This document shows positions 811-20,371 of a stretch of DNA of 64,000 nucleotides, piece by piece (positions within the stretch are counted from its first letter, which is position 1; every line of letters begins with the position of its first letter). Below the pieces are notes generated by a model. The model made no database searches, was not told the DNA's origin, and saw only the letters and a program-made list of their open reading frames with translations. The position numbers were made by a program, and so were the translations under genes. Source of the stretch: Ensifer sp. Root278 (GTDB taxonomy: Bacteria; Pseudomonadota; Alphaproteobacteria; Rhizobiales; Rhizobiaceae); the NCBI RefSeq assembly GCF_001429285.1, contig NZ_LMJJ01000013.1:1-64000 (forward strand), read 5' to 3'.

Positions 811-825
811 TTGCCATATCGGCAA
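811..825. promoter_or_regulatory. Putative LysR-type operator 2 (TTGCC-N5-GGCAA)
   Basis: TTGCCATATCGGCAA keeps both 5-bp arms of the sites at 776 and 9914 with a different centre. It lies about 80 bases before the ABC substrate-binding gene. The 35-base offset from site 1 places the two nearly on the same DNA face, as for a LysR tetramer with recognition and activation sites. Confidence 0.6.
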
Positions 826-903
826 TACCAACCGCTAAAAATTGTGCTTTATGAGATGCCAAATTCCATCATCATCGACCCCATAACAAGCAAGGGGAAC
901 GAT

Positions 904-1938: not shown

Positions 1939-1942
1939 GGCG

Positions 1943-3582: not shown

Positions 3583-3694
3583 CCCCCAAACCCCTTGCTG
3601 CCGGACCTGGATATCCGGGTCCGGTCAACCGACGAAGTCACTGGCTGTGAGCTCCTCACATTTCGCCGGACAGGTCCCCTATGGAGGAACGATT

Positions 3695-5050: not shown

Positions 5051-6204
5051 CATCTCTTCCCCTCAACGGTATCCGCGTCGTCGATTTCACCCAGGTCATG
5101 CTGGGCCCGTGCTGCACGCAGATGCTGGCCGACTATGGCGCCGAGGTCATCAAGGTCGAAAAGGCCAAGATCGGCGATCTCTCGCGCTGGTCACTGGGGT
5201 CGGATCCGGACGGCCTCAACAATCCGGTCTTCTCGTCGCTCAACCGCAACAAGAAGAGCCTGGCGCTCGACCTCAAGCAGGATGAGGCGCGTGCCGCGGT
5301 GCGCGCCCTGATCGACACGGCCGACGTGGTCGTCAACAATTTTCGCCCCGATGTCATGGAGCGCATGGGCTTCGGTTATGAAGAGCTCAGGAAGAGCAAT
5401 CCGCGGCTGATCTACGCCGTCGGTACGGGCTTTGGCCTGGAGGGGCCTTATCGGCACAAGGGCGGACAGGACATCCTCGCGCAGGCGCTTTCCGGTGTCA
5501 TGCGCCGCAAGTCGGACGCGAGCCATCCGCTGTCGATCTACGCGACGCCGCTTGCCGACTATTCGGCCGGCATGCACCTCGTCCAGGGCATTCTGCTTGC
5601 CTTGCTGCACCGTGAAAAGACCGGCCACGGCCAGCAGGTTGCGGTCAGTCTCTACAGCTCGATGCTCGCCATGCAGATGCAGGAAGGCACCACGCACATG
5701 ATGCGGGAGAAGGACCTGAACTGGGGCGCTTTCCCTCTGACAGGCGTGTTCGAGACCACCGACGGCGCCATCGTCATGGTCGGCGCGTTCAAGCAGAACC
5801 CGCTGCGCGACATTTGCACGGCATTGGAGATCGAGGATCTGTCCCTACGGCCGCAATTTGCCGATTTCGACGCACAGATGCAGCGCCGGCCGGAATTGCA
5901 GCAGGTCTTCCGCGAGGCGTTCGCGAAGAACAGCAGCGCCCATTGGCTCGGCCGGCTGGAGCAGGTGGACATTCTCTGCGCGCCGGTACGCTCGCTTCCC
6001 GAAGCACTCGACGACGAGCAGACGGTGATCAACGGCATGATCCTTCACGCCGGCGAAACGAAGGCCGGTCCGATCCGGCTGGTCGGTTCGCCGATCGATA
6101 TGTCGGCGGCGACCGTAACGGTGCGCATCGCCCCGCCGAAGCTCGGCGAGCACAATGACGAGATACTCTCGGGGCTCCCCGTTCGCCAGGGAGATGCGGC
6201 ATGA
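5047..6204 (+). CDS. CoA-transferase family III (CaiB/BaiF)
   Basis: The 385-residue protein starts with the family pattern LNGIRVVDFTQVMLGP and has the conserved catalytic aspartate in LADYSAG (D171). Enzymes of this family move CoA between acids through an aspartyl-CoA anhydride without free energy input. It overlaps the preceding and following genes by four bases (ATGA), so FAD oxidoreductase, CoA-transferase and hydratase are translationally coupled and probably act on one substrate. Family membership is clear; the donor and acceptor acids are unknown. Confidence 0.92.
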   Translation: MTSLPLNGIRVVDFTQVMLGPCCTQMLADYGAEVIKVEKAKIGDLSRWSLGSDPDGLNNPVFSSLNRNKKSLALDLKQDEARAAVRALIDTADVVVNNFRPDVMERMGFGYEELRKSNPRLIYAVGTGFGLEGPYRHKGGQDILAQALSGVMRRKSDASHPLSIYATPLADYSAGMHLVQGILLALLHREKTGHGQQVAVSLYSSMLAMQMQEGTTHMMREKDLNWGAFPLTGVFETTDGAIVMVGAFKQNPLRDICTALEIEDLSLRPQFADFDAQMQRRPELQQVFREAFAKNSSAHWLGRLEQVDILCAPVRSLPEALDDEQTVINGMILHAGETKAGPIRLVGSPIDMSAATVTVRIAPPKLGEHNDEILSGLPVRQGDAA

Positions 6205-6974
6205 GCGTCGAGTTCGTCGTAAAAGACCGCGTTGCGACGGTCACGCTAAACCGTCCGGAACGGATGAATGCGGTGGACGCAGCGACCGAAGGCGAACTGG
6301 AGGCTATCTGGCAGGAGATTGAAGCCCGCGACGACGTAAGCTGCGTCGTGCTGACGGGCGCAGGCGAACGGGCATTTTGCGCCGGAGCGGATCTTAAAGG
6401 GGCCGAAAAGACCGGCCTCGACTACTGGAGCGAGAGCCGGCCGAACGGTTTCGGCGGGCTCGCCTTTCGCCGCTCGCTGGATGTTCCTGTAATCGCCAGG
6501 GTCAACGGCTATGCGCTGGGCGGCGGATTCGAGATGGTTCTCGGTTGTGATATCGTCGTTGCCTCGACGAAGGCGGCGTTCGGTCTGCCCGAGGCCCGCG
6601 TCGGACGCCTGCCGCTCGATGGCGGCATGGTGCTTCTCCAGCGCAGGATCCCTCACAATCTCGCGATGGGCGTTTTGTTGACCGGCCGGCGGTTTTCCGC
6701 AGCCGAGATGCAAAGCTTCGGCATCGTAAACGAGGTGGCTGAACCCGAGGAGCTCGATGCCGCCGTTGCCCGCTGGGTGGCCGAAATCGTCGCCTGCGCG
6801 CCGCTTTCGCTTCGCGCGATCAAACAGACTGTCAATCGCACCGGGCATCTGTCGCCGGCGGAAGCACAAGGGCTGCGCACGCCTGCACTCGTGAAGGCGC
6901 TTAAAAGCGAGGATGCTCTGGAAGGCGTCAGCGCCTTCCAGGAGAAGCGCGCGCCCGTTTGGAGGGGACGATGA
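6201..6974 (+). CDS. Enoyl-CoA hydratase/isomerase family protein
   Basis: A 257-residue crotonase-fold protein. The oxyanion-hole segments are visible in CAGADL (60-65) and GYALGGGFEM (103-112), and a conserved glutamate in AFGLPEARVG (E131). It probably hydrates or isomerises the unsaturated acyl-CoA made by its two upstream partners; carnitine-type racemisation is another option for this CaiB/crotonase pairing. The start overlaps the CoA-transferase stop. Length is normal for the family. Confidence 0.92.
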   Translation: MSVEFVVKDRVATVTLNRPERMNAVDAATEGELEAIWQEIEARDDVSCVVLTGAGERAFCAGADLKGAEKTGLDYWSESRPNGFGGLAFRRSLDVPVIARVNGYALGGGFEMVLGCDIVVASTKAAFGLPEARVGRLPLDGGMVLLQRRIPHNLAMGVLLTGRRFSAAEMQSFGIVNEVAEPEELDAAVARWVAEIVACAPLSLRAIKQTVNRTGHLSPAEAQGLRTPALVKALKSEDALEGVSAFQEKRAPVWRGR

Positions 6975-7018
6975 GCGTGTTATAGGTCGGAGCCCAGGGG
7001 AGGGGAGGTTCCAATCGA

Positions 7019-7942
7019 ATGCACGCCAGCATCCTGAAATATTTCGTCTCGGTCGCGCGGTCCGGGTCCATTCGCAAGGCCTCCGAGGAGCTTCACGTCG
7101 CATCCTCGGCGGTCAGCCGGCAGATCAAGAAACTGGAGGACGAGCTCGGGATCGCCCTGTTCGAACGGCTCTCGAACGGCCTGAGGCTGACCGTCGCCGG
7201 GGAAAACGTGCTGCGCCACGCCCGGGTCACGCTTGAGAATTTCGAGCTTCTGCGCAGCGACCTCGGCGCCTTGCAGGGAAAAAAGGCCGGTCGCGTGCAA
7301 ATGTCTTGTCTGGACAGCCTGGCCATCCAGTTCCTGCCGGACATGGTCAACACGTTCCACAGCATCCATCCGGGCGTGAGCTTCCATATCCACACCGCCG
7401 GTCACGGCAACATCAGCAGCCTGGTTGCCGAAGGTGATGTCGACATGGGGTTGACCTTTGATCTCGCCCGTCCAGACGACACGGAGATGCTCTTTCGCGT
7501 ACCGATGCCGCTGATGGCTTTCGTCGGACGGGGACATCCGTTGGCGAAGCAGCGGCAGGTCTCGCTCGCCGAATGCGCTCAGTACGACCTGCTTCTGCAA
7601 CTCGATACGCAGCCGATCCGCTCGCTCATCGAAATCGAACTCTCGGTCTTCGAACGAACCGGGCGGCCCTTTGTGCTGTCGAACAGCCAGATGATGCTCA
7701 AGCCATTCATCATCTCGGGGCAGGGAGTGGCTTTCTTCACGCCGATCGGCTTCCTCGCGGAAATCAAGGCAGGCGATGTCGTTCCGATACCGCTTTCCGG
7801 ATCGCGCCTTCAGAACCTGCATATCGGAATTCTCGTGCAGCGACGCCGGCAGCGAACCCACGCGGCCGAAGCCGTCATCGAATTCGTTGGTGCGGAACTG
7901 CTGAGGTTCAGCGACCAGATCATGGAGGCAATCAATCCTTGA
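7019..7942 (+). CDS. LysR-family transcriptional regulator
   Basis: A 307-residue regulator with an N-terminal winged helix-turn-helix (about residues 5-62, ASSAVSRQIKKLEDELGIALF) and a two-lobed effector domain. GGGGAGG precedes the ATG. It lies 44 bases after the hydratase gene in the same direction rather than divergent, so it may be co-transcribed with the genes it controls. It is the natural candidate for the TTGCC-N5-GGCAA sites at 776, 811 and 9914. The coinducer is unknown. Confidence 0.92.
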   Translation: MHASILKYFVSVARSGSIRKASEELHVASSAVSRQIKKLEDELGIALFERLSNGLRLTVAGENVLRHARVTLENFELLRSDLGALQGKKAGRVQMSCLDSLAIQFLPDMVNTFHSIHPGVSFHIHTAGHGNISSLVAEGDVDMGLTFDLARPDDTEMLFRVPMPLMAFVGRGHPLAKQRQVSLAECAQYDLLLQLDTQPIRSLIEIELSVFERTGRPFVLSNSQMMLKPFIISGQGVAFFTPIGFLAEIKAGDVVPIPLSGSRLQNLHIGILVQRRRQRTHAAEAVIEFVGAELLRFSDQIMEAINP

Positions 7943-9336
7943 GTGAACGCCAGGTCCCCGGGCGACTTCTTTTGCATCCTGGCCACGAGGCCGCAAGGCG
8001 TGAGCCAAACCTCTTGCGGCATCTGCCTGACGGTGCCTCCTCGGCTGCGATCCCGGCCAATGCCCTCCTGATGCCGCCGCCCGTCAACGCGCATGACCAC
8101 GGCTATGGCATCCGCACGCTCGATTTCGGCAATGTCGACGATGCTCTGGAAGTTTGGATCCCCGGGCTTCGGCTCCGACCGCGCACCGATCCCTACCTGG
8201 AAGCGCTCGTGGCATTCTCCCGGCTGGCGCAAACGGGCATCGGTGCGACCATGCATTGTCACAATTCGCTGAATGTCGACCGACTGGTGGAGGAGGCTGG
8301 TGCGGTGATGCGCGCGGCCCGCGACGTAGGCATCAGACTTGCGCTATCCTGCCCGCTTCTCGACTACGATCCGTGGGCTTATGATGGCGGGCCGCAGCGA
8401 TTGCGGCCGTATCTCGCTCCGGCAGACTGGGACGAACTCAGTGCCTCGATCCCCCAATATGCCCCGCCTTCAATCCAGATTTCGGCGGCCGACTCGGTCG
8501 CCGCAGCCAACACCAACCCGCTGATCGATGTCCAGTACGGCCCGATCGGGCCGCAGTGGTGCTCCAATGCACTGCTCGAAAGCATCGCCGAGGCCTCTCA
8601 CGCAACGGGTCGTCGCATTCACATGCATCTCCTCGAAAGCCCAAGGCAGAGGCTGTGGCTGGACAGGCGCTTTCCGCAAGGGGTCGTCCGATACCTCGAC
8701 GATATCGGCTTCCTCTCGCCCCGCCTTGCCGTTGCCCATGGCGTTCAACTGCGGCCGGATGAGCTGGGGCTGCTGGCAGCAAGGGGTGTGCAACTTGTTT
8801 CGAACCCGTCGGCAAACTTGCGCCTGCGTTCAGGCGTGGCGCCGCTCGCTGCCATTCCGGCAAGCGGGCCCGCCTTCGCTTTCGGCCTCGACGGCACGGG
8901 GTTTGACGACGACCAGGACCTTTGGCGCGAACTGCGCCTCGGCCATCTGTTGCACGGTGGCCGCGACCTGGCGCGGACCTTTACGGCACGTCGCGTCTTC
9001 GATGCCGCGATCCATGTCGGCGCCAAGGTTGTGAATGCGCCAGCGAACGAAGACCTCGTCCTCGTGGACTACGGTGCGCTGATCGCCGATAGCTTGATAG
9101 ACGATCTGGACGAGGCCGAGGTTCTGCTCACGCGAATGACGGCGGCGCACGCGAAGGGACTTTACGTCGGCGGACAGGAGATCATGCGCGATGGGAAGCT
9201 GACTCAGGTCGATTTCGAAGGTGCCCGGGCCGAACTCCTGCAGCAGGCGCGTGCGGACCTTCCGCGGCTGAACTGCGAGCGTGAACTCGTGACCAAGCTC
9301 GCCGCGGCGACGCGGGCCTATTATTCCGGCTGGTGA
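7939..9336 (+). CDS. Amidohydrolase-superfamily protein (cytosine deaminase/chlorohydrolase-like)
   Basis: Starting at the TTG at 7939, which overlaps the LysR stop and has GGAGG about 10 bases upstream, the protein has 465 residues. The metal-binding pattern of the superfamily is visible: H-D-H in NAHDHG, a histidine in HMHLLES, a histidine in VAHGVQL and an aspartate in FGLDGTGFDDDQD. These enzymes hydrolyse C-N (or C-Cl) bonds of cyclic or heteroaromatic compounds in the cytoplasm. Its place directly behind the LysR gene suggests it belongs to the same pathway. The open frame reaches further upstream inside the LysR gene, but that part is a shadow. Confidence 0.82.
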   Translation: MSERQVPGRLLLHPGHEAARREPNLLRHLPDGASSAAIPANALLMPPPVNAHDHGYGIRTLDFGNVDDALEVWIPGLRLRPRTDPYLEALVAFSRLAQTGIGATMHCHNSLNVDRLVEEAGAVMRAARDVGIRLALSCPLLDYDPWAYDGGPQRLRPYLAPADWDELSASIPQYAPPSIQISAADSVAAANTNPLIDVQYGPIGPQWCSNALLESIAEASHATGRRIHMHLLESPRQRLWLDRRFPQGVVRYLDDIGFLSPRLAVAHGVQLRPDELGLLAARGVQLVSNPSANLRLRSGVAPLAAIPASGPAFAFGLDGTGFDDDQDLWRELRLGHLLHGGRDLARTFTARRVFDAAIHVGAKVVNAPANEDLVLVDYGALIADSLIDDLDEAEVLLTRMTAAHAKGLYVGGQEIMRDGKLTQVDFEGARAELLQQARADLPRLNCERELVTKLAAATRAYYSGW

Positions 9337-9490
9337 GCCCAAGCGGCGAGGCCGCAAAAACATCTCGGGATACGTGCGGCGAGGGCCGAGATGGGACGGC
9401 TTTCTACCGGCCTCAAGTTTCGTTTCTCTGGGCAACCGTCGACCTGCGTCTGTGCAGCTGCCCTGTCTTGCTCCTGTGGATCAGGTCTGC

Positions 9491-9829
9491 TTATGCGACG
9501 GTTACCGCTTTCTCGAAGGCGGCAACGAAGGGATGGTCCTGCACCGTCGAGCACTCCTTGCTCCACCCGCCCGGTGAGCCCATTCCGGTGACGTCGGCTC
9601 CGAAGAACTCCTTGTTCACAGCGATGAAATGGCGCTGGTTGTCGGCGATCTCGTGATCCCAGACGATGGCATCGACGGGGCAGATCGAAAGACAGAGCCC
9701 GCAATTTATGCATTCATCGGGGTGGATGTAGAAGGTACGGCCACCCTCGTAGATGCAGTCGACAGGGCAGGCGGCGGTGCAGTCGCCATCCTTCACGTCG
9801 ATGCAGGGTTCGGTAATGACATAGGCCAT
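9491..9829 (-). CDS. Seven-iron type ferredoxin (FdxA-like)
   Basis: 112 residues beginning MAYVITEPC. The cysteine pattern in the N-terminal half (CTAACPVDC then CINCGLCLSICP) fits a [3Fe-4S] plus [4Fe-4S] ferredoxin of the FdxA type. Such proteins carry electrons to oxidoreductases or oxygenases. I chose the ATG at 9829 because it gives the canonical N-terminus; an open extension of 61 residues upstream looks non-coding. It converges on the amidohydrolase gene and has its own copy of the TTGCC-N5-GGCAA site 85 bases upstream. Confidence 0.93.
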   Translation of the reverse strand: MAYVITEPCIDVKDGDCTAACPVDCIYEGGRTFYIHPDECINCGLCLSICPVDAIVWDHEIADNQRHFIAVNKEFFGADVTGMGSPGGWSKECSTVQDHPFVAAFEKAVTVA

Positions 9830-10064: not shown

Positions 10065-10697
10065 TTAGGGCTGCCGGAGGATACCTCTCAGGATCGTCTC
10101 GGTGATCGTGGCCGCCGCCTTTTCGTAGTCATCGGCTTTCAAACGGGGCTTTTTGAGCGCGTCGACGGCGACGGGTTCGAAGTCCGAGTAAAACTGGGTC
10201 GACGCCCAGAGCATGATGAAGAGATGACGTGGATCGACCGGCAGCATCTTGCCAGCGGCGATCCAGCCCTCGATGACCGCGACATGAGTATCCGTTACCT
10301 GACGGATGTGTTCGCGATCCTTCTTGGTCAGGAAGCGGGCGCCTTGAATGATTTCGCTGGCGAAGAGCCGGGACTCGGCCATGTTCTTGCGCGTGTATTC
10401 CAGCTTCGCCTTGATGTAGAGCCTGAACGCCTCCGCCGGTTCGCGCTCCGGCGAAATGTATTTCAGTGCATCGTCCCAACTGGCGAGCAGATGCGCGATG
10501 ATGGCGGTGTAGATCTCCTCCTTGGACGAGAAGTAGTAGTAGACGTTTGCCTTGGGCAGGCCCGAAGCCTCGGCAATCTCGGCGATGCGCGTGCCATCGA
10601 AGCCCTTGCGGGCAAATATCTCGATCCCCGCCTTGATGATCAGCCGCACGTTACGTTCGCGGATGCGCTCTTCGGGATCTCGTACTGCCCTTGCCAT
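10065..10697 (-). CDS. TetR-family regulator, RutR-like
   Basis: 210 residues: a TetR helix-turn-helix at about 20-65 (IAEASGLPKANVYYYFSSKE) and a ligand-binding domain. The late segment WIAAGKMLPVDPRHLFIMLW followed by ASTQFYSDF closely parallels E. coli RutR (as I recall it), the uracil/thymine-responsive repressor of pyrimidine-ring degradation. It diverges from the operon at 10932, and three TTGAC-N6-GTCA boxes resembling the published RutR site (TTGACCA-NN-TGGTCAA) lie in the shared intergenic region. The effector may be a pyrimidine or related ring; that is inference. Confidence 0.88.
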   Translation of the reverse strand: MARAVRDPEERIRERNVRLIIKAGIEIFARKGFDGTRIAEIAEASGLPKANVYYYFSSKEEIYTAIIAHLLASWDDALKYISPEREPAEAFRLYIKAKLEYTRKNMAESRLFASEIIQGARFLTKKDREHIRQVTDTHVAVIEGWIAAGKMLPVDPRHLFIMLWASTQFYSDFEPVAVDALKKPRLKADDYEKAAATITETILRGILRQP

Positions 10698-10816: not shown

Positions 10817-10832
10817 TTGACGATGCAGTCAA
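10817..10832. promoter_or_regulatory. RutR-like operator box 1 (TTGAC-N6-GTCAA)
   Basis: TTGACGATGCAGTCAA has perfect 5-bp inverted arms with a 6-base centre, the layout of the RutR consensus. It lies between the divergent TetR and UDG-like genes, 22 bases (two helical turns) from box 2. Confidence 0.6.
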
Positions 10833-10838
10833 GAAACG

Positions 10839-10854
10839 TTGACCGAGTCGTCAT
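10839..10854. promoter_or_regulatory. RutR-like operator box 2 (TTGAC-N6-GTCA)
   Basis: TTGACCGAGTCGTCAT keeps the left arm in full and four bases of the right arm. It is the middle of three similarly spaced boxes. Confidence 0.55.
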
Positions 10855-10872
10855 TTTTTTTGCTTTTGAAAG

Positions 10873-10888
10873 TTGACACTTTGGTCAG
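10873..10888. promoter_or_regulatory. RutR-like operator box 3 overlapping a -35 element
   Basis: TTGACACTTTGGTCAG fits TTGAC-N6-GTCA and matches most of the RutR consensus on its right side. Its first six bases are also a consensus -35 hexamer (TTGACA, 10873-10878), with TAGTCT 18 bases downstream as a weak -10. Binding here would block the promoter of the operon starting at 10932. Confidence 0.6.
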
Positions 10889-10931
10889 CTTTTGTCTAGT
10901 CTCATCCTCAATGAACGGAAGGAGAGCCGTA

Positions 10932-11783
10932 ATGCCGATGCGCTTGAAGGAGGCAATGGCGGAGACGTTTGCAGGCTGGGAGGGCGACCTTCCGAATGCA
11001 TGGCGCGATGCGCTCGGCCCCGTCGGCGACGATTTCGCCCGTATCGATGCGGACCTCGAACTGGAGCCGTGGGAGCCGATCTTCCCGGCGCGCCGCGGCA
11101 AGGTTTTTCCCGGTCAGCCAAGGGGCGCGCATGCCCTGGCGGCGTTCGACGGAATTGCGCCCGATGGCGTTCGCTGCCTGGTTCTTGGGCAGGATCCTTA
11201 TCCCGAACCGGGTTTTGCGACGGGGCGCGCTTTCGAGGCCGGCAATCTCGCCGCCTGGGGTGAGCTGGACAAGATGTTCTCGAAGAGCATTCGCGCCTAC
11301 ATGCAGCTGATTGCGGCCGCACGCCTTGGTGACGAAAGTCTGGCGCGCGATTTCGACCACTGGCCCGATGTGCGGCATCTGCTGTGCGATCCGGCGGGTT
11401 CGTTCGAGCCGCCGAGCCTGATCGCCGACCGTTGGGTCGGGGAGGGTGTTCTCCTGCTCAATGCCTCGCTGACGCTCTCTCGCTTCCGTGTCGATATCGA
11501 TCCACACCAGTCGCGCGGGCATCTGTCCTTCTGGCGGCCGTTGATGCTGCGCGTGGTCGAAATGCTTGTGGCGCGAGGCAAGCCGGTCGTTTTCCTCGGC
11601 TTCGGCGCGGCTGCGGCTGACATTTTTTCGGAAGCCGGCGTTGCCGAGGGGCGCACGGACCATGTCGCCTATGTCCAGCGCGAGCATCCCGCCTTTGCCG
11701 ACAAGGTGCTCGGCCGAGAAAATCCGTTCCTTCTCTGCAATTCTTATTTGGAGGCGATGGGCGGCCGGCCCATCGCGTGGTGA
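10932..11783 (+). CDS. Uracil-DNA glycosylase-superfamily protein
   Basis: 283 residues, longer than typical Ung (about 230). The catalytic motif GQDPYPEPG (86-94, D88 as the water-activating aspartate) and a late HP motif in REHPAF resemble family 1 UDGs, with LLLNASLT as the central strand. AAGGAG lies 7 bases before the ATG at 10932. It is the first gene of an operon continuing into a GMC oxidoreductase, a NIPSNAP protein and a nucleoside-type transporter under RutR-like boxes, an unusual setting for DNA repair. It may be a true glycosylase or a UDG-fold enzyme acting on free nucleosides; the sequence does not decide. Confidence 0.85.
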   Translation: MPMRLKEAMAETFAGWEGDLPNAWRDALGPVGDDFARIDADLELEPWEPIFPARRGKVFPGQPRGAHALAAFDGIAPDGVRCLVLGQDPYPEPGFATGRAFEAGNLAAWGELDKMFSKSIRAYMQLIAAARLGDESLARDFDHWPDVRHLLCDPAGSFEPPSLIADRWVGEGVLLLNASLTLSRFRVDIDPHQSRGHLSFWRPLMLRVVEMLVARGKPVVFLGFGAAAADIFSEAGVAEGRTDHVAYVQREHPAFADKVLGRENPFLLCNSYLEAMGGRPIAW

Positions 11784-11786
11784 ACC

Positions 11787-13412
11787 ATGGCGCGTAACCC
11801 GGAATATGATTTCATCGTCGTTGGCGCGGGCTCGGCCGGTTGTGTCCTTGCGAACCGTCTGTCGAAGAACCCGGCAAACCGCGTGCTTTTGATCGAGGCT
11901 GGCGGCAAGGATCGCAACCCGCTGTTCCGGCTGCCGATGCTGATGGGCAAGCTGTTCCATTCGGGCATCTACAACTGGCATTATCACACCGAGCCCGAGC
12001 CTTATCTCAATGGCCGCTCGCTCTATTGGCCGCGCGGCAAAGTGCTGGGCGGGACCTCCACCATCAACGGCATGATCTACGTGCGCGGCAATCGCCACGA
12101 CTACGATCGCTGGTCGCAGCTCGGATTGCCCGGCTGGTCCTATGAGGAAGTGCTGCCGGCATTCCGACGTTCCGAAACGCATGTACAGCGGAAGGATGCC
12201 TTCCACAGTGGCGACGGGGAACTCACCGTCTGCCGAGCCCGTGGCAACAATCCGCTGATGGACGTGTTCTGCGAGGCGGGCATCCAGGCCGGCTATCCGG
12301 CCAACGATGACTTCAACGGAGAGACGCAAGAAGGCTTTGGCCGCTATGACTTCACCATCCGCAAGGGAAAGCGCTGGTCCACATCATGGGCGTTCCTGCG
12401 TCCGGCACTCGGCCGCAAGAACCTCACCGTGCTGACGGGGGCGGAGATCACGCGCCTGATCATCGAAGGCGACCGGGCGTGCGGCGTCGAGTATTTTAAA
12501 GACGGCGTGCTGGGACGCGCCCGTGCGGGGCGGGAGGTGATCCTCTCCTCAGGGGTGGTCAATTCGCCCAAGGCGTTGCTTCTGTCCGGAATCGGACCCG
12601 CGGACGAGCTCCGGGCGCTTGGCATCGAGCCGGTGTTGGACCTGCCTGGCGTCGGCAAGAACCTCCAGGACCACGTCGACTGCGTCATGAGCTGGGAATG
12701 CCGGGAGCCGATCACGCTCTTCAGCGAGCTGCGGGCGGACAAGCTTATTCCCGCCGTTGCCCAGGGCATGCTGTTCGGTGAGGGCGTCACCACGACCTTC
12801 CCCTATGAAGCCGGTGCCTTCATCCGCTCGAACGACGGCCTGGTTGCGCCCGACATACAGCTGCACTTCATGCCGGCGCTGGAAAAGACGGCCAACCTGC
12901 ACTTCCCCAATCCGTTCCGGAAGAAGCAGGCCGTAGAGGCCAACCACGGGTTCACGATCCGCGTCGGCCCCGTCAATCCGGTGAGCCGCGGCGAGATCAC
13001 GTTGCGCTCGGCGAACGCGACGGACAAGCCGAAGATCCAGGCCAACTACCTCCGTGACGATTTCGACGTTCGCACGATGATCGATGCCATCCGGCTGACC
13101 CGTGACATTGTCGGCCAGAAGGCTTTCGACCGCTATCGCGGCAAGGAGCTGGCACCGGGGCCGGAAGCGCTCGACGATGCCGCTTTGACGAGCTGGTTGC
13201 GGGCGACCGCCATGACAACCTTCCACCCGGTTGGAACCGCCAAGATGGGCAACGACCCCATGGCTGTGGTGGATGCGCGACTCAAGGTGCGCGGTATCGA
13301 AGGGCTGCGTGTCGCGGACGCCTCGATCATGCCGGTCATCTCAAGTGGCAACACCAACGCGCCAGCCATCATGATCGGCGAGAAATGCGCCGAATTCGTC
13401 CTGAACGCATAG
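11787..13412 (+). CDS. GMC-family FAD oxidoreductase (choline/alcohol dehydrogenase-like)
   Basis: 541 residues. The FAD-binding fold VVGAGSAGCVLANRLS is at the N-terminus, PRGKVLGGTSTINGM is the GMC signature 1 region, a GREVILSSGVVNSPKALLLSG signature-2-like block follows, and the C-terminal catalytic histidine is in TFHPVGTAKMG. No signal peptide is seen, so it is cytoplasmic and reduces an internal acceptor. It starts 3 bases after the UDG-like gene stops. It probably oxidises an alcohol such as a sugar or ribose moiety; the substrate is unknown. Confidence 0.93.
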   Translation: MARNPEYDFIVVGAGSAGCVLANRLSKNPANRVLLIEAGGKDRNPLFRLPMLMGKLFHSGIYNWHYHTEPEPYLNGRSLYWPRGKVLGGTSTINGMIYVRGNRHDYDRWSQLGLPGWSYEEVLPAFRRSETHVQRKDAFHSGDGELTVCRARGNNPLMDVFCEAGIQAGYPANDDFNGETQEGFGRYDFTIRKGKRWSTSWAFLRPALGRKNLTVLTGAEITRLIIEGDRACGVEYFKDGVLGRARAGREVILSSGVVNSPKALLLSGIGPADELRALGIEPVLDLPGVGKNLQDHVDCVMSWECREPITLFSELRADKLIPAVAQGMLFGEGVTTTFPYEAGAFIRSNDGLVAPDIQLHFMPALEKTANLHFPNPFRKKQAVEANHGFTIRVGPVNPVSRGEITLRSANATDKPKIQANYLRDDFDVRTMIDAIRLTRDIVGQKAFDRYRGKELAPGPEALDDAALTSWLRATAMTTFHPVGTAKMGNDPMAVVDARLKVRGIEGLRVADASIMPVISSGNTNAPAIMIGEKCAEFVLNA

Positions 13413-13423
13413 GAAGCAATCTG

Positions 13424-13744
13424 ATGATCCTGGAACACCGCACCTACACCTTCAAGCCCGGCACGGTCGACAAGTGGATGAAGAAGTACGAGGCCGACGG
13501 CCTTCCCGTGCAGAAGCGCCATCTCAACAAGTTCGTCGGTCTCTATGCCTCGGAACTGGGAACGCTTCACACGACCGTGCTGATGTGGGCCTACGACAGC
13601 CTCGCTGACCGCGAAGCGCGCCGCGCGGCCATGTATGCCGATCCGGACTGGCAGAAGTTCATTTCCGAAGTCTGGGCGCTGGACGCGATCCAGAAGCAGG
13701 AGGTGATGATTATGAACCCGGCCTCCTATTCGCCGCCGCTTTGA
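13424..13744 (+). CDS. NIPSNAP family protein
   Basis: 106 residues starting MILEHRTYTFKPG, a typical NIPSNAP (ferredoxin-like, dimeric alpha-beta barrel) beginning. The ATG at 13424 has AGGAAG upstream; a longer open frame exists but would overlap the GMC gene. Small NIPSNAP proteins often accompany oxidoreductases in catabolic operons, with a biochemical role that is still poorly defined. It sits between the GMC gene and the transporter. Confidence 0.85.
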   Translation: MILEHRTYTFKPGTVDKWMKKYEADGLPVQKRHLNKFVGLYASELGTLHTTVLMWAYDSLADREARRAAMYADPDWQKFISEVWALDAIQKQEVMIMNPASYSPPL

Positions 13745-13821
13745 GGCGGCAACTGGCGCCAGTACCGCCAGCGCCGTGGCAAATGCGAATGAGAAACAAC
13801 AAGATAAAAGAGGGAACGATC

Positions 13822-14883
13822 ATGACAGACAAGACTGGGAAGATTACACAGCACATGATGCAGCGCCGGACATTCCTGCAGGCGAGCGCGGGTGCCGCGG
13901 CGCTCGGCTTTGCAGCCAGCATCGTGCCCGAATTCGCCCGTGCGTCCGGCGGGCTGGTCGCGCTGGTCCACACGCAAGCTGCAGGCGACAATGGTCCGGT
14001 GGACCAGATGATCGCCAAGCTCAAGCAGCTTTCGGAAGAAAAGGGCTTCGAATACCGCGCTGTCTACGCGCAGGATCCGGCGACCTACGAGACGGTCTAC
14101 CGCACGCTGGGAGATGCGGGCGCGGCGATCATCGTCTCGACCTTCAACGAAGTGGCCGAGCCCTTCAAAGCGCTGGCGCCGTCCTATCCCAACACCAAGT
14201 GGATCCAGCTTTTCGCCGACCCCTTCGAGCCGGCAATCCCGAACGTGGTGACCGTTTCCTACGACTACTATCTTGGTTGCTATCTGTCGGGAGTTTTCGC
14301 GGCCAAGATGTCGTCGACCGGCAAGACCGGCTTCATCGGCGGCGTTTCCATCCCGCCTCTCAACGCAGACTTCAACGCCTTCAAGGCCGGCGTGCATTCC
14401 ATTCGACCGGATGCCTCCGTCATCGCCGCCTTTGCAGGCTCGTTCCAGGACCCTGCAAAGGGTCAGGAAATCGCTACCCAGATGTACAATGACGGCATCG
14501 ACTACATCCAGACCGATGCGGCGGCCACCGACGGCGGCATCATTGCCGCGGCCAACGAGAAGGAAGGGCGCATGGTGAGCTGCCTCGCGCCCGGACAGTA
14601 TGAGCTCGGTCCGAAATCCCTGATATCGATCGTCAGCCTGGACTTCGGCGCCTCGCTCTACAACGAGGCCAGCAAGGCGGTTGGGCCCGAATGGAACGGC
14701 GGAGCGCACGAGCATACGGGGCTTGGCACCGGCGTCATCGACTTCATTCTCTCGCCGGTCTTCACCGAACAGGGGCCGGCGGATCTGAACGCCAAGGCGA
14801 AGGAAGCGCTGGTCGAGGTCGCCAAGATTCGCGCCGGCATCCTGGATGGATCGATCAAGGTTCCGTTCAACACCACCCTTTGA
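13822..14883 (+). CDS. BMP-family ABC transporter substrate-binding protein
   Basis: 353 residues of the BmpA/PnrA (basic membrane protein) family, which binds nucleosides or related compounds in several bacteria. A Tat-like signal (QRRTFLQAS, about 14-22) leads to a cleavage site near RASG. GAGGGAACG precedes the ATG at 13822; earlier in-frame starts add an unlikely leader. Two stable hairpins follow the gene before the ATPase gene, consistent with higher expression of the binding protein. Confidence 0.9.
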   Translation: MTDKTGKITQHMMQRRTFLQASAGAAALGFAASIVPEFARASGGLVALVHTQAAGDNGPVDQMIAKLKQLSEEKGFEYRAVYAQDPATYETVYRTLGDAGAAIIVSTFNEVAEPFKALAPSYPNTKWIQLFADPFEPAIPNVVTVSYDYYLGCYLSGVFAAKMSSTGKTGFIGGVSIPPLNADFNAFKAGVHSIRPDASVIAAFAGSFQDPAKGQEIATQMYNDGIDYIQTDAAATDGGIIAAANEKEGRMVSCLAPGQYELGPKSLISIVSLDFGASLYNEASKAVGPEWNGGAHEHTGLGTGVIDFILSPVFTEQGPADLNAKAKEALVEVAKIRAGILDGSIKVPFNTTL

Positions 14884-14892
14884 TCTCCTGAC

Positions 14893-14911
14893 GCTGGCTC
14901 GCGGAGCCAGC
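14893..14911 (+). other. Stem-loop after BMP binding-protein gene
   Basis: GCTGGCTC and GAGCCAGC form an 8-bp stem with a 3-base loop, just after the stop codon. There is no T tract, so it is more likely an mRNA-stabilising or attenuating structure than a full terminator. Confidence 0.55.
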
Positions 14912-14937
14912 CCGAAGTTTCGAAGGACGTCGGCACA

Positions 14938-14960
14938 GACCTTCCCTCTTGGGGAAGGTC
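14938..14960 (+). other. Second stem-loop between BMP gene and ATPase gene
   Basis: GACCTTCCC and GGGAAGGTC form a perfect 9-bp stem with a 5-base loop. With the hairpin at 14893 it separates the abundant binding protein from the membrane and ATPase genes; no T run follows. Confidence 0.55.
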
Positions 14961-15031
14961 ACTGGGGTTCGCGGATCGTTTCCAGCCCTGTTGACAGCCG
15001 CGAACCTCCCGCTCTCGATGGGAACCATTGC

Positions 15032-16612
15032 ATGTCCAATTCTCCGAAATCGGCCCTGGAGTGCCGGAACGTCACCGTCAAATTCGGAGACGTGACGGCG
15101 TTGTCGGAGGTTTCAGCTTCGTTCGCTCCTGGCCATATCCATGCGGTCGTCGGTCAGAACGGGGCCGGCAAGACCACCTTCGCACGGGTTGCCGCCGGCC
15201 TCGTCCAGCCGACCTCCGGCGCGGTCAACGTGATGGGAGACGACATCCGGACGGGGCGGGTCAGCGAAAGCCGGGCCGCGGGCGTGGAGCTCGTCCACCA
15301 GAGTTTTGCGTTGCCACCGTCCTTTACCGTCGCCGAGACCATGGAGTTTGGCGCTACGGGCAAGGGCGGCATCTATAGCCGCAAGGGGCTCGCTAAAAAA
15401 TGGCGGGCGCATCTCGCGGGGCTCGACGTCCAGGTCGACTTGAACCGGCGTATCCGAGACCTGCCGATCGAGACCCAGCAGGGCATAGAGATTGCCCGCG
15501 CGCTGGTCACGGATGCGCGCGTCCTCATTCTTGACGAGCCGACCGCAGTCCTGTCTCCCGCGGGCATCGACATGCTGTTCGCGCGCGTTCGCCGCCTTAG
15601 GGAACGTGGGGTGACAGTTATCCTCATCCTGCACAAGATCCGCGAGGTGCTGGGCATCGCCGACACGGTCACGGTGCTGCGGGGCGGCCAGAAGGTCGAA
15701 GGGCCGCTTCCGGTGGCTGAGGTTTCGGGCGAGCGATTGGCCAACCTCATCGTCGGTGAGGCTGTAGCGAAGACGCTCGATCGGCACGATCGCGATGCAT
15801 TGGTCGGAACGAAGTCACCGGTCCGTGGGGACTCCGATCAGCCGGCGCATGCGGCCGGCCCTGCCATCCTTTCGATGAAGGCCGTCTCCACCCGGCCGGA
15901 CAGCGGGGGCATTGCCCTCGATGGCATCGATCTGGAGATCCGCCCGGGTGAGATCGTGGGTATCGCCGGGGTGGAAGGCAACGGGCAGAAGACGCTGGTG
16001 CGGGCTATCTCTGCTCTCGCCGACCTGACAAGTGGATCGATCCAGCTTGCAGGCCATGACGTGACTGGCGAACCTCTCGCCGACCGTCGCGCGATCGGTC
16101 TTAGGATCATTCCCTTCGAGCGCAACGTCGAAGGTCTCAGCCTCACGAGTTCGCTCTGGCAGAACTGGAGCGCGAGGGAGCTGCTGCAGGGCAGGCTGCT
16201 CAAGCTGATCCGTCCCTCGGCAGTGCGCGATGCCTGCGACCGGTCACTCAAGGAATGGAGCGTTCACTACCACAATTCCGCGCAGAAGGCGGGGTCCCTG
16301 TCGGGCGGCAATGCGCAGAAGGTGATCCTCGCCCGGGAGATCGATCCCGATGCGAAGCTGATCATCGCAGCCCAGCCGACCCGCGGCCTCGATATCGGGG
16401 CCACCGCCTTCGTTTGGCAGGCGCTCCGGCAGGCGCGCGACCGTGGCGCGGCCATACTGCTGATCTCGTCGGATCTCGACGAGCTCTTCGACATATCGGA
16501 TCGCGTCGTGGTGATGCTGTCGGGACGCCTGAACGGCGAGTTCCGTGCGCCCTTCGACATAGGGTTGGTGGGAGCGGCCATGACCGGTGCCGTTGCAGGG
16601 GCAAGCGCATGA
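15032..16612 (+). CDS. ABC transporter ATP-binding protein with two ATPase domains (nucleoside/simple sugar type)
   Basis: 526 residues with two tandem ATPase domains, as in MglA/RbsA and in BMP-type transporters. The first has Walker A VGQNGAGKTTF and Walker B VLILDEP. The second has a degenerate Walker A (VEGNGQKTLV) but an intact LSGGNAQKV signature, a common asymmetry in this class. The start at 15032 gives MSNSPKSALECRNV; the ribosome site is weak (GGGAA). The gene overlaps the first permease by 4 bases. Confidence 0.92.
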   Translation: MSNSPKSALECRNVTVKFGDVTALSEVSASFAPGHIHAVVGQNGAGKTTFARVAAGLVQPTSGAVNVMGDDIRTGRVSESRAAGVELVHQSFALPPSFTVAETMEFGATGKGGIYSRKGLAKKWRAHLAGLDVQVDLNRRIRDLPIETQQGIEIARALVTDARVLILDEPTAVLSPAGIDMLFARVRRLRERGVTVILILHKIREVLGIADTVTVLRGGQKVEGPLPVAEVSGERLANLIVGEAVAKTLDRHDRDALVGTKSPVRGDSDQPAHAAGPAILSMKAVSTRPDSGGIALDGIDLEIRPGEIVGIAGVEGNGQKTLVRAISALADLTSGSIQLAGHDVTGEPLADRRAIGLRIIPFERNVEGLSLTSSLWQNWSARELLQGRLLKLIRPSAVRDACDRSLKEWSVHYHNSAQKAGSLSGGNAQKVILAREIDPDAKLIIAAQPTRGLDIGATAFVWQALRQARDRGAAILLISSDLDELFDISDRVVVMLSGRLNGEFRAPFDIGLVGAAMTGAVAGASA

Positions 16613-17646
16613 AAGACAGTCTCATCACCGTCGTCCGCAGTCTGATCTTTGTGATCTTCGCGCTCATCCTCTGCGCGCTCGTGTTCCAGCTTGCCGGTTA
16701 CAATGCCCCGGTGACGCTCTGGGCGGTGCTCGATGGAGCATTCCTGCGAAGCGGCGCGATCGAGCAAAGTCTCAGATGGGCGCTGCCGCTGTTCATAACG
16801 GCCGTCGGCGTCGGCATTTCCTTCCGGGCGGGTTTCTTCAACATCGGTGCCCAGGGCCAGTTCTATGTCGGTGCCATCTGTGCCGCCTTTGCTGCCGAAG
16901 CTCTGAAAGGCGGACCAGCCTTTCTGGTTATCCCGGCCTTGCTTCTTGCCGGCATGCTCGGGGGTGCTCTCTGGGCGCTGTGGCCGGGATTGCTGCGGCT
17001 CCGCTCCGGCACCGACGAGGTCATCACAACGCTGATGGGCAACTTTATGGCCGGCCTGCTTCTGGTCTATGTCACCTCAGGGCCGCTGAAGGATCCCTCA
17101 GGTTCCGGCCAGCAGGCATCGAGCCGCCCGCTTGATGCGGCCTACCGCATCTCGAATTCTCTCGGTCTCTCCCCGGCGATCATCGCAATCGCGGTGGTCG
17201 TTGGCATCTTCATGTGGCTGCTGGTGAACCGAACTTCCTACGGCGTCCTGGCAAGCCTTGCCGGCCGCAATGGCACGATGGTGGAATGGCAGGGCGCGCG
17301 CCTCTGGAAGCTCGGCCTCTCCAGTTTCCTCATTTCGGGGGCGCTTGCGGGCCTTGCCGGCACCATCGAGTTCATGGGGCCGAACGGCCGCATCGCCTCG
17401 GGCTTCCTGCCGGCGCACGGGTTCACCGCGATCCTGATCGCGCTTGTCGCCAATCTCTCCGTTCTCGGAACGGCGGTTGCTGCCGTGTTCTTCGGCGGCC
17501 TTGCCTCGGCGGCACTCTATCTGCCGATCATGGCGGGGCTGCCGTCGGCGGCGATCGACATCATCAACGCGGCGATCGCGCTGTTCATAACCGCGCGCTC
17601 TACCTTCATCGACAAGGTGCTGCGCCTTGGAGGGCGTTCGACATGA
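16609..17646 (+). CDS. ABC transporter permease 1 (BPD_transp_2, BMP-type system)
   Basis: 345 residues with about nine or ten hydrophobic helices. Motifs of the branched-chain/sugar/nucleoside permease family are present, such as FFNIGAQGQFYVGA and GTDEVITTLMGNFM. The ATGA overlap with the ATPase gene fixes the start. It forms a heterodimeric channel with the next gene, which overlaps it by 4 bases. Confidence 0.9.
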   Translation: MKDSLITVVRSLIFVIFALILCALVFQLAGYNAPVTLWAVLDGAFLRSGAIEQSLRWALPLFITAVGVGISFRAGFFNIGAQGQFYVGAICAAFAAEALKGGPAFLVIPALLLAGMLGGALWALWPGLLRLRSGTDEVITTLMGNFMAGLLLVYVTSGPLKDPSGSGQQASSRPLDAAYRISNSLGLSPAIIAIAVVVGIFMWLLVNRTSYGVLASLAGRNGTMVEWQGARLWKLGLSSFLISGALAGLAGTIEFMGPNGRIASGFLPAHGFTAILIALVANLSVLGTAVAAVFFGGLASAALYLPIMAGLPSAAIDIINAAIALFITARSTFIDKVLRLGGRST

Positions 17647-18536
17647 ATGAGATCTTCATCGCCATCTTGCGCTCCGGTACGCCGCTGATCTACGTCACGC
17701 TCGCCGGCGTTATCGCGCAGCGGGCAGGGGTCTGGAACCTCGGTCTCGAGGGCCTGATGATCATCGGCGCCTGCGCGACAATTCTCGGCATCATGCTCAC
17801 AAAGTCCGTCGGCGCCGCCATCCTCATCGCCATCATCGCCTGCGTGCTGGCCTCGGTGCTTCTCTGGTTCGTCATCGACAGGTTGAAGGCCAATCCTATT
17901 ATCGCCGGCCTCGGGCTGACTGGTCTCGGCATCGGCGGTACGGCGCTCGCCGTCCAGTCTATCTTCGGCAGCCAGGCAACCGTAACGGCACCTTTCGGCA
18001 TTCCAAAATTGGGGCCGGCCTTCGGTTCCTATGGCGTGCTGTCGGTCTCGGTTGCGGCCATGCCGCTCGTCGTCTTTGCCATGTGGGTGCTGTTGCGGCG
18101 AACGCGCTTCGGCCTGCGGCTGGCCGCCTGCGGGGAGCATCCGTTCGCTGCGCGCGGCGTCGGCGCCAACCCCTCGCGCATGCGGCTCGTGGCGCTTTCG
18201 ATCGGTGGGGTGCTGTGCGCGATTGGCGGCGCAGAACTTGCCGCTGGCAGCCTGCAGTTCTTTGCCCAGGGCATGACGGCCGGTCGCGGCTTCATGGCGT
18301 TTGCTGCCGTCATCTTTGGCGCGGCCCATCCCGTGGGTGCCACCTTCGCCGCCTTGTTCTTTGCCATCGTCGGCGCCATCGGCATCCGGGCGCAGTTGAC
18401 GTTCGGCGACAGGATTCCGCACGATCTCCTGCAGGCATTGCCCTATCTCGCGACGGTTTTCGGCGTCTGGCTGTCCGGAAAGCTTCGCGGCGGCGCGAAA
18501 GCCGCAAGCTCGTTCGCCGAGCTCAGGGATCAGTAA
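17643..18536 (+). CDS. ABC transporter permease 2 (BPD_transp_2, BMP-type system)
   Basis: 297 residues, strongly hydrophobic, with VWNLGLEGLMIIGA near the N-terminus (the usual partner motif to NIGAQGQF in permease 1) and an ARGVGANPSRMR loop. It completes the four-gene transporter and is followed after 58 bases by the amidohydrolase gene. Confidence 0.9.
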   Translation: MNEIFIAILRSGTPLIYVTLAGVIAQRAGVWNLGLEGLMIIGACATILGIMLTKSVGAAILIAIIACVLASVLLWFVIDRLKANPIIAGLGLTGLGIGGTALAVQSIFGSQATVTAPFGIPKLGPAFGSYGVLSVSVAAMPLVVFAMWVLLRRTRFGLRLAACGEHPFAARGVGANPSRMRLVALSIGGVLCAIGGAELAAGSLQFFAQGMTAGRGFMAFAAVIFGAAHPVGATFAALFFAIVGAIGIRAQLTFGDRIPHDLLQALPYLATVFGVWLSGKLRGGAKAASSFAELRDQ

Positions 18537-18594
18537 TCATGATGCGCGGCGGACGCCATCCTCAGGTCATTCGGTGGTTTCCGGGGCATTTGTC

Positions 18595-20103
18595 ATGAGC
18601 GAAATTCTCATCCGCAATGGGACGATAGTTGCGATGGACCGCGCTCACGGCGCAACACCATTTGCCGCTGACATCCTGATCGAAGGCACCGAGATCAGAT
18701 CGATCGGGTCGGGCCTTGCCGCCAGGCCCGACGCCCAAATTATCGAGGCACGCGGCAAGCTGGTCCTGCCGGGACTGGTCAATGCCCATACGCATTCCAG
18801 TGAGACATTCCTGCGGGGGCGCTATGAGCGCATGCCGCTCGAACTCTGGCTGCTCTATGCCTATCCGCTGTTGATGAACGACCCGATCGGCGAGCGCCTG
18901 CTGTACCTGCGCAGCCTGCTGCTGGCGATGGAATCGCTGCGCAACGGCGTCACGACGCTCTGCGACGATTTTTTCGACCCGCCCCGGCACGATCTCGACC
19001 GGCTTGCCACCGTCTTTCGCGCCTACGACGATGCCGGAATCCGCGCCAATATTTCCAGCGCGGCGATGAATGTGCATACGCTTGATGCGCTGCCTTTTGT
19101 GCGCGAGATAATGCCCTCGGCGATGCAGGATCTTCTCGATTTTGGTCCGCCGATGTCGGCAGGAGCGTATGCGGACTATTGCCGCGCTGCCTTTTCCAGC
19201 CTGCACGGGATGTCGGGCCGCCTGCAGTTCATGATCGCACCTTCCGCGCCGCAGCGCTGCACGCCCGATCTCATGGCGGCCTGTATGGAGCTGGCAGTTG
19301 AAAGGCATGTGCCGTTCCACACGCATGTCCTCGAGACCAAGACGCAGGCGGTGACGGGGCTCGTTCATCACGGCAGGTCCTTGATCGCCTATATGCACGA
19401 TCTCGGCCTTTTGAAACGCAACACGACCATCGCGCATTCGGTGTGGGTCAGCGACGAGGACATCGAGCTGATGGGGGAGGCGGGCGTCTCCGTTGCCCAC
19501 AACGCCGTCTCCAACCTGAAGCTTGGGGCCGGGATCGCGCCGATCCGCCGCCTGCTCGATGCCGGTGTGACGATCGGCCTTGGCACGGATGGCGTTTCGT
19601 CGAACGACACGTCTCGCATCTTCGACGTCATGCGCGTCGCCGGTCTCGTTCATAGTGCCGCCGGTCCTGACTACGAGAAATGGCTCAGGGCGGACGAGAT
19701 CCTCACCATGGCGACCATCGGCGGCGCCAAGACGGCGATGCTGGAACAGGTGACCGGTTCCCTGGAAGTCGGCAAGTCGGCCGATCTTCTTGTCCTGGAT
19801 ATGCGAAATTATCCCTTCGTGCCGCTCAACGATGTCGCCAAACACCTTGTCTATTCGGAAAACGGATCGTCGGTGGAAGCAGTGATGGTTGCCGGACGAA
19901 TCGTCATGCAGGGCGGACGCCTGACCACGGTGGATGAACAGGCCGTCTTCGATGAAATTTCCGAACTCGTGCCGGCATATCTTGCCGAACACGCCGAACT
20001 TGAGCGCCGCAACGCGATCTTCGAACCCGTGCTGGCAGAGGTCCATCGAATGGCGACCGCGATGGACATTTCTCTCAACCGATACCAAGGCGATGCCGTA
20101 TGA
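18595..20103 (+). CDS. Amidohydrolase, nucleoside/SAH deaminase or chlorohydrolase type (MtaD/TrzN-like)
   Basis: 502 residues of the ATZ/TRZ/MtaD group: H-x-H in NAHTHSSE, a histidine in FHTHVLET, a histidine in IAHSVWV and the aspartate in LGTDGVSSND. Members deaminate adenosine derivatives, guanine or triazines. Placement behind a nucleoside-type importer and RutR-like control suggests nucleobase or nucleoside deamination. The ATG at 18595 is preferred; a GTG 21 bases upstream is possible, and neither has a strong ribosome site. The remaining 270 bases to the next gene hold nothing I recognise. Confidence 0.88.
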   Translation: MSEILIRNGTIVAMDRAHGATPFAADILIEGTEIRSIGSGLAARPDAQIIEARGKLVLPGLVNAHTHSSETFLRGRYERMPLELWLLYAYPLLMNDPIGERLLYLRSLLLAMESLRNGVTTLCDDFFDPPRHDLDRLATVFRAYDDAGIRANISSAAMNVHTLDALPFVREIMPSAMQDLLDFGPPMSAGAYADYCRAAFSSLHGMSGRLQFMIAPSAPQRCTPDLMAACMELAVERHVPFHTHVLETKTQAVTGLVHHGRSLIAYMHDLGLLKRNTTIAHSVWVSDEDIELMGEAGVSVAHNAVSNLKLGAGIAPIRRLLDAGVTIGLGTDGVSSNDTSRIFDVMRVAGLVHSAAGPDYEKWLRADEILTMATIGGAKTAMLEQVTGSLEVGKSADLLVLDMRNYPFVPLNDVAKHLVYSENGSSVEAVMVAGRIVMQGGRLTTVDEQAVFDEISELVPAYLAEHAELERRNAIFEPVLAEVHRMATAMDISLNRYQGDAV

Positions 20104-20371
20104 CGCGACCTCGATGGCAGACGATTTTTCCCAGTGACGTAGCCAGCCTTGTTGCAACGCTCCGTAGAAAAAATTGGGCAAATCGCATCATACGTGTGGC
20201 GCGAACCATGACAACAATCTATGGATGATACTGCACGCATAACTTGCGATTTTCTGGCTCACAAGCTGGGCAAAAGTTCTTCACTGTAGGAAAGCTCTGC
20301 TGCACCTGGGCATGGATTGCGGGTGCTTGCGCGATTTGGACGACCTTCGGGGGAAGGCGGACGGGGAACCG

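Follow-up and report, generated by a model that had tools for sequence, protein, structure and literature searches.

A RutR paralogue and a conserved pair of candidate operator boxes beside a putative pyrimidine-nucleoside operon in Ensifer sp. Root278

Introduction

The operator of Escherichia coli RutR follows a consensus of the TTGACC...GGTCAA type. According to the accessible portion of PMC10891134, this operator is a palindrome of approximately 16 bp, and in the protein the uracil ring is stacked upon by W77 and W167, uracil is bound by Q171 and, via water, by Y97, and Q179 of the other subunit lies within contact distance of it. For E. coli RutR, it is uracil and not thymine that is reported to be the relevant ligand (PMC6245113, in part), and RutR regulons were previously reconstructed in 68 genomes (PMC5343134, in part).

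Here, a stretch of DNA from Ensifer sp. Root278 (the window, i.e. the whole 64 kb that was analysed) is compared with this system. The original prediction for this DNA had placed three RutR-type boxes between a RutR-like repressor and a divergent operon, in a cluster lacking the rut genes, and had proposed uracil, thymine or a related ring as effector.

Results

Candidate operator boxes and promoter

The intergenic region between a TetR-family regulator gene (10065..10697, minus strand) and the first divergent gene (10932..11783, plus strand) contained three palindromic sites (no strand assigned), candidate operator box 1 (TTGACGATGCAGTCAA, 10817..10832), box 2 (TTGACCGAGTCGTCAT, 10839..10854), and box 3 (TTGACACTTTGGTCAG, 10873..10888), each an exact match to TTGAC-N6-GTCA. 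The three boxes were thereby confirmed, as were their predicted spacings of 22 and 34, counted from start to start. All three carry the TTGAC/GTCA core of the E. coli RutR-type operator, and the inner C and G vary. A scan of the window gave no exact match beyond these three; with one mismatch permitted, 15 matches were obtained against 10.67 expected, so that only the exact cluster is notable. The full palindrome TTGAC-N6-GTCAA occurred at 12 places in the 7.1-Mb genome against 7 for the backward pattern, and a lone box therefore carries little information, whereas clustering and conservation count. Among these 12 places, judged with crude ORF calls, no convincing second target was found.

Box 3 contains TTGACA (10873..10878, plus strand), a putative −35 hexamer of the divergent operon that is present in 17 of 22 aligned rows. 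It is followed, after a gap of 17 bp, by a putative −10-like element, CTAGTC (10896..10901, plus strand; 12 of 22 rows, from the closer relatives). The two elements at this distance fit a promoter, and a scan with the strict sigma-70 consensus found none.

The regulator and a canonical RutR elsewhere in the genome

The regulator (210 aa) has a TetR_N domain and the YcdC-like C-terminal domain PF08362 (133.2 bits; cut-off, 25). Its best solved match by sequence was E. coli RutR (E 2.3e-38), and by fold five RutR entries (Z 24.8 to 23.8) preceded the next non-RutR chain (Z 18.4), so the description of the regulator as RutR-like is upheld. Orthology with RutR is not: the protein failed the cut-offs of both RutR equivalog models, NF011584 (150.2 against 230) and TIGR03613 (176.9 against 368; a poor test, passed by 0 of 200 sampled genomes), and it fell outside the E. 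coli RutR clade in the phylogeny that had been proposed as a check, the first of the two findings named as speaking against the prediction.

In that tree (119 rows), the regulator belonged to a clade of its own comprising 65 rows (support 100/98), a branch with support 99/88 set 44 canonical RutR rows, including the E. coli RutR clade, apart from the other two clades, and Pseudomonas-type regulators formed the third clade (10 rows, 100/99); the tree was midpoint-rooted, long branches were noted, and its root leaves the sister pair among the three clades undecided. Near-copies (L016-L024, L057, L061, L078, L084, L097, L116, L117, L119, L121-L123), fragments (L063, L069), and duplicates (L125, L136) were omitted, and for L096, which has two regulator genes, one was taken as the tree row. 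Three sequences initially labelled RutR (L153-L155) were placed by the tree in the Pseudomonas clade, and the residue tallies include them under that clade.

The sole other PF08362 gene of the genome (L156:8778-9485) encodes a canonical RutR (52% identity to E. coli RutR, 34% to the window protein) that passed NF011584 (231.4 against 230), a model which thus separates the two paralogues. Its neighbours above cut-offs encode PreA (a dihydropyrimidine dehydrogenase subunit), dihydropyrimidinase, and a hydantoinase/carbamoylase-family amidase, and the one box found in 18 kb, TTGACCGGTTGGTAAA at L156:8681, lies before its own gene. Because a canonical RutR is encoded elsewhere in the genome, the window protein is, by these sequence relationships, a paralogue beside a true RutR, and RutR-like rather than RutR. 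A box with at most one mismatch was present in 27 of 46 canonical-type or unplaced RutR-like loci (L029-L044, L126-L155), some of these boxes probably by chance. No rut or pyd genes were found among the neighbours of the window regulator that were scanned or annotated, and the predicted absence of the rut pathway is borne out for RutA, the enzyme with which that pathway begins, as none scored above cut-off in the whole genome.

The divergent genes

The genes at 10932-20103, all on the plus strand and taken here as one operon, encode a uracil-DNA-glycosylase-like protein (UDGl, 283 aa, 10932..11783), a GMC (choline-dehydrogenase-like) oxidoreductase (11787..13412; PF00732, PF05199), a NIPSNAP-family protein (13424..13744; PF07978), a Bmp/PnrA-type ABC transporter substrate-binding protein (13822..14883; PF02608), an ABC transporter ATPase (15032..16612; in 60 of 65 clade loci), two ABC transporter permeases (16609..17646 and 17643..18536; in 59 and 58 of 65 loci, respectively), and a TRZ/ATZ-type amidohydrolase of 509 aa, a predicted deaminase (18574..20103, start possibly 18595; PF01979). 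The gene order is identical in the annotated record NZ_CP070354.1, in which the ATPase is annotated as an ATP-binding cassette protein and both permeases are likewise annotated. Within the fetched stretches and at 40% identity or more, the 65 clade loci contained UDGl (58), GMC (58), NIPSNAP (56), Bmp (60), and amidohydrolase (45) genes.

A nucleoside hydrolase gene was found in 27 of the 65 clade loci and a thymidine phosphorylase gene in 6; one or the other was present in 30 loci, in each case encoded in the same direction as the permease, and in L107 the nucleoside hydrolase was placed beyond the regulator. The nucleoside hydrolases (2 of 27 checked) matched best, below cut-offs, the models of RihA (pyrimidine-specific) and UriH (uridine-preferring), and the thymidine phosphorylases (2 of 6 checked) exceeded the cut-offs of NF004490 and TIGR02644. 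The window itself has no relative of a nucleoside hydrolase or phosphorylase at E 1e-5. The presence of such genes in the orthologous operons makes it likely that the operon serves to take up and degrade nucleosides, with a preference for pyrimidines. The nearest NCBIfam models of the amidohydrolase describe deaminases and hydrolases acting on N-heterocycles, namely triazine, 5′-deoxyadenosine, and 8-oxoguanine enzymes, all below cut-off. The Bmp-type transporter, whose family carries other solutes too, matched a single named model, that of a putative B6 transporter, at 41.8 against 400 bits.

Orthology of the operon amidohydrolase to Arad3529, a pterin deaminase of a rhizobial relative, was considered and dropped on length (509 against 399 aa). 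The length of 399 aa is that of a Variovorax enzyme 37.0% identical to Arad3529 (PMC9513972, in part). Among the papers listed, no title or abstract describing the operon or the UDG-like protein was found, and the accessible part of PMC9007349 holds nothing on the operon.

After the operon, the ORF list of the window shows a 1639-aa ORF (20312-25231) with many repeated stretches. A second cluster, upstream of the operon (811-9793), encodes an NMT1-type ABC transporter, an FAD oxidoreductase, a CoA transferase, an enoyl-CoA hydratase, a LysR protein, and an amidohydrolase, with a ferredoxin on the opposite strand; of the best 80 of 144 loci, L045 and L046 alone have it complete next to the operon, as does NZ_CP070354.1.

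Conservation of the boxes in orthologous loci

Loci were taken as the best 80 of 144 obtained from a scan of named genomes using the regulator, and at least 450 bp of upstream sequence was present in 77 of the 80 (64 of the regulator's own clade and 13 from Pseudomonas). Upstream of the regulator, at least one TGAC-N6-GTCA core occurred in 62 of the 64 own-clade loci and at least two in 54. A pair of boxes 32-35 bp apart was present in 51 of these 64 loci, which derive from the best 80 of 144, and one 21-23 bp apart in 11 of 64; the distance was exactly 34 bp in 41 neighbouring box pairs of own-clade loci. As a control, 5887 stretches of 480 bp were drawn at random from these loci; the core was found in 59 of them and the pair in 9. 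The exact pair was missing in 13 own-clade loci, 10 of which had one core or none, and no core was found upstream in L087 and L111 (2 of 64) or upstream of the Pseudomonas-type regulator in any of 13 loci. That the core letters do not vary among the 51 box pairs follows from how the pairs were selected and is no result, and a count of 109 cores in the foreground against 26 in the background was set aside because some palindromes had been counted twice. Absence of the boxes from orthologous loci had been named as the second finding that would speak against the prediction; the boxes are instead present, and their association with the regulator and the divergent operon is borne out across these loci.

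The intergenic regions of the window and 21 loci, which were picked for diversity once the boxes were known, were aligned, and at a mean column identity of 46% there were 19 invariant columns, of which 16 fall in the half-sites of boxes 2 and 3, the other 3 being at the start codon. Boxes 2 and 3, which are widely conserved, are read as ancestral, and the lineage-specific box 1 as one probably gained later, in the Ensifer/Rhizobium lineage. The UDGl-GMC genes of L087, of L089, and of the second unit in L096 have no regulator gene divergent to them; an exact box and a one-mismatch box, 34 bp apart, lie directly before these genes, and in L099 and L107 additional boxes lie upstream of the Bmp gene. 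The boxes and the operon are well supported.

Some loci are organised differently. L096 has, on one contig, two regulator genes and two units of UDG-like, GMC, and NIPSNAP genes, with a box pair before each unit. In the two Pseudooceanicola loci, the regulator orthologue is located away from the operon, with one box in L101 and none in L111, and the L101 regulator adjoins methylmalonyl-CoA mutase and propionyl-CoA carboxylase genes.

The uracil-DNA-glycosylase-like protein

In family-1 uracil-DNA glycosylase (Ung), the catalytic residues are the Asp and Tyr of GQDPY, the Asn of LLLN, and the His of HPS, and the Leu of HPSPLS intercalates into DNA. UDGl had no Pfam match at E 0.001 and scored below the cut-offs of all five NCBIfam ung models that it matched, and its predicted structure (pLDDT 91.6) resembled M. 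tuberculosis UNG (4wpk; Z 21.2, rmsd 2.7, 214 aligned residues, 28% identity). Residues G86 Q87 D88 P89 Y90 (GQDPY), N177 (LLLN), and H252 P253 (HP), which align to the motifs of E. coli Ung, were invariant in 35 of 35 rows. In the nine UDGl rows aligned with E. coli Ung, the intercalating Leu was replaced in all nine, and the PPSL loop was in all nine not at the aligned place, where the alignment is uncertain owing to a 27-residue insertion; a PPSL occurs further on in the window protein. The chain is 54 residues longer than that of E. coli Ung. Retaining the catalytic motifs and having lost the DNA-intercalating leucine, UDGl is the most novel element of the locus. As four other UDG-family genes of the genome scored above the Pfam cut-off, UDGl is not the sole repair candidate.

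All 4 Bmp-bearing loci that lack UDGl have a thymidine phosphorylase gene, against 2 of the 58 loci that have UDGl. Fisher's test for mutual exclusion gave p 2.7e-5, a value that ignores kinship; mapped on the regulator tree, the exchanges amounted to two independent events (sign test p 0.5), and gene absences may also stem from the fetched stretches being limited to 10 kb. The two enzymes are distributed as if they were alternative cutters of the same bond. Cleavage of free pyrimidine deoxynucleosides by UDGl is put forward here with low confidence; the near-exclusion with thymidine phosphorylase, with its two independent exchanges, points in this direction. A fuller scheme, in which a uracil-DNA-glycosylase fold would have passed from DNA repair to nutrition, UDGl would split free pyrimidine deoxynucleosides or short oligonucleotides, the GMC enzyme would oxidise the freed sugar, and the re-tuned RutR paralogue would sense the base or nucleoside, is rather unlikely. 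The oxidative deoxyribose route described in PMC6365646 uses a molybdenum enzyme, and the term GMC is absent from the main text of that paper, which therefore lends no support to the sugar-oxidation step.

UDG-like proteins also occur elsewhere. On a plasmid of Variovorax sp. RA8 (L160:10323-12855), a 36% identical one is encoded directly after an amidohydrolase and a cytochrome P460 gene, an arrangement which suggests that the link between UDG and amidohydrolase may extend past the operon. A plasmid collection gave 38 records carrying the UDG-like protein, 31 of them from Sinorhizobium meliloti, and all plasmids among the matches listed were large; where annotated, the plasmid-borne protein is named uracil-DNA glycosylase.

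The ligand pocket

Of the residues that contact uracil in E. coli RutR, W77, Y97, and W167 were kept in all 65 window-clade rows and Q171 in 59 of 65. Q179 was present in none of the 65, whereas all 44 canonical RutR rows and all 10 Pseudomonas-type rows have it. In the window clade its position is occupied by Val (27), Leu (22), Ile (10), Thr (3), or Met (3), and the complete five-contact uracil site (W77, Y97, W167, Q171, and Q179′) is therefore not retained there. Two further positions are changed: H172 is Phe or Tyr in all 65 rows, and L78 is Asp in 63 of 65. From these replacements, the paralogue would still hold a uracil-like ring, of which a different edge would be read, as in a substituted pyrimidine or a nucleoside. 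Because the inter-subunit contact Gln179 is replaced, plain uracil is probably not what the protein naturally binds; a substituted pyrimidine or a pyrimidine nucleoside is the more likely ligand. The prediction of a uracil- or thymine-type effector is thus divided: a pyrimidine-type effector has become likelier, as the orthologous operons carry pyrimidine-nucleoside enzymes, but with one of five contacts missing in 65 of 65 rows a simple carry-over of plain uracil or thymine as ligand is doubtful.

Discussion

The reading that we favour, to which we assign a probability of about two in three, is that the regulator is a local repressor of an operon for pyrimidine-nucleoside uptake and breakdown and is released by a uracil-like ligand, probably not plain uracil. 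A regulator dimer would bind boxes 2 and 3, which are the ancestral palindromes, and in the lineage of the window also the third palindrome, box 1. Occupation of box 3 would mask the −35 hexamer and silence the divergent genes, presumably a single transcript, the products of which would import nucleosides via the Bmp-type ABC transporter and then degrade them. The promoter would be freed when a uracil-like ring, sandwiched by the two conserved tryptophans, releases the regulator.

That the TTGAC-GTCA repeat arose by chance or from several −35 hexamers and is no operator is hardly credible. TTGACA is indeed a promoter element, and lone palindromes are common in the genome, as counted above; yet both half-sites of two boxes are invariant although the remaining intergenic DNA has diverged, and the pair is far more frequent upstream of the regulator than in the random stretches (51/64 loci against 9/5887). 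It is also quite unlikely, though more readily conceived, that the boxes serve the genome's canonical RutR as operators, either in trans or shared between the two paralogues, which would leave the adjacent regulator a smaller role. Given the similar box before the canonical rutR gene, canonical RutR might bind the window boxes too: the same TTGAC/GTCA core occurs at several canonical RutR loci, including that of this genome, exact palindromes occur at L029, L137, L147, and L150, and the recognition-helix residues K52, N54, and Y57 are common to both clades. Against this, the paired boxes at 32-35 bp accompany the window-type regulator gene, most canonical sites found have the inner letter of TTGACC or GGTCAA, a position at which window-type boxes vary, and recognition-helix positions 51, 53, 55, and 56 differ between the clades.

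The nature of the substrate leaves room for another reading, namely that the system serves purine-type or other N-heterocycles (8-oxoguanine, isocytosine, pterin, or vitamin-like rings) and that such a ring is the effector; we regard it as rather unlikely. It draws on the Pseudomonas-type regulators (L112-L124; 42-43% identity to the window protein), which in 13 of 13 loci stand by the same cluster of Bmp-type ABC transporter and amidohydrolase, the latter scoring 717.5 bits with an 8-oxoguanine deaminase model (cut-off, 532) in the one locus scanned (L118), and on the operon amidohydrolase, whose closest models, all below cut-off, include the 8-oxoguanine enzyme. The RihA/UriH-like nucleoside hydrolase and thymidine phosphorylase genes of the orthologous operons, and the catalytic and uracil-reading motifs of UNG retained in UDGl, argue instead for the pyrimidine-nucleoside operon proposed above.

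A subfamily of RutR-type regulators with a conserved double operator is defined here, which was found in Hyphomicrobiales and a few other Proteobacteria. As a single diagnostic change marks its pocket, a shift in sensing from uracil to another ring is directly testable. UDGl, hitherto named 'uracil-DNA glycosylase' by resemblance only, gains a hypothesis of function and may be a metabolic enzyme; it shares the fold and the GQDPY, LLLN, and HP motifs with family-1 Ung and differs from it in the missing intercalating Leu, in its longer chain, and in being encoded by the first gene of a putative catabolic operon.

Among described regulators, E. coli RutR is like the window protein in its fold, C-terminal domain, both stacking tryptophans, Tyr97, and mostly Gln171, in the TTGAC-N6-GTCA operator core, and in its orientation divergent to an operon. 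The window protein differs in sequence (37% identity) and clade, and its system in the absence of rut genes and in having two or three spaced boxes; where E. coli RutR regulates rut and carAB, the target here is a putative operon for nucleoside uptake. The genome's own canonical RutR belongs to the same family as the window regulator and has a similar operator core, with a single box found in 18 kb. The Pseudomonas-type regulators are likewise near a Bmp-type ABC transporter, but keep Gln179, form a separate clade, and are without the TGAC-N6-GTCA core in 13 of 13 loci.
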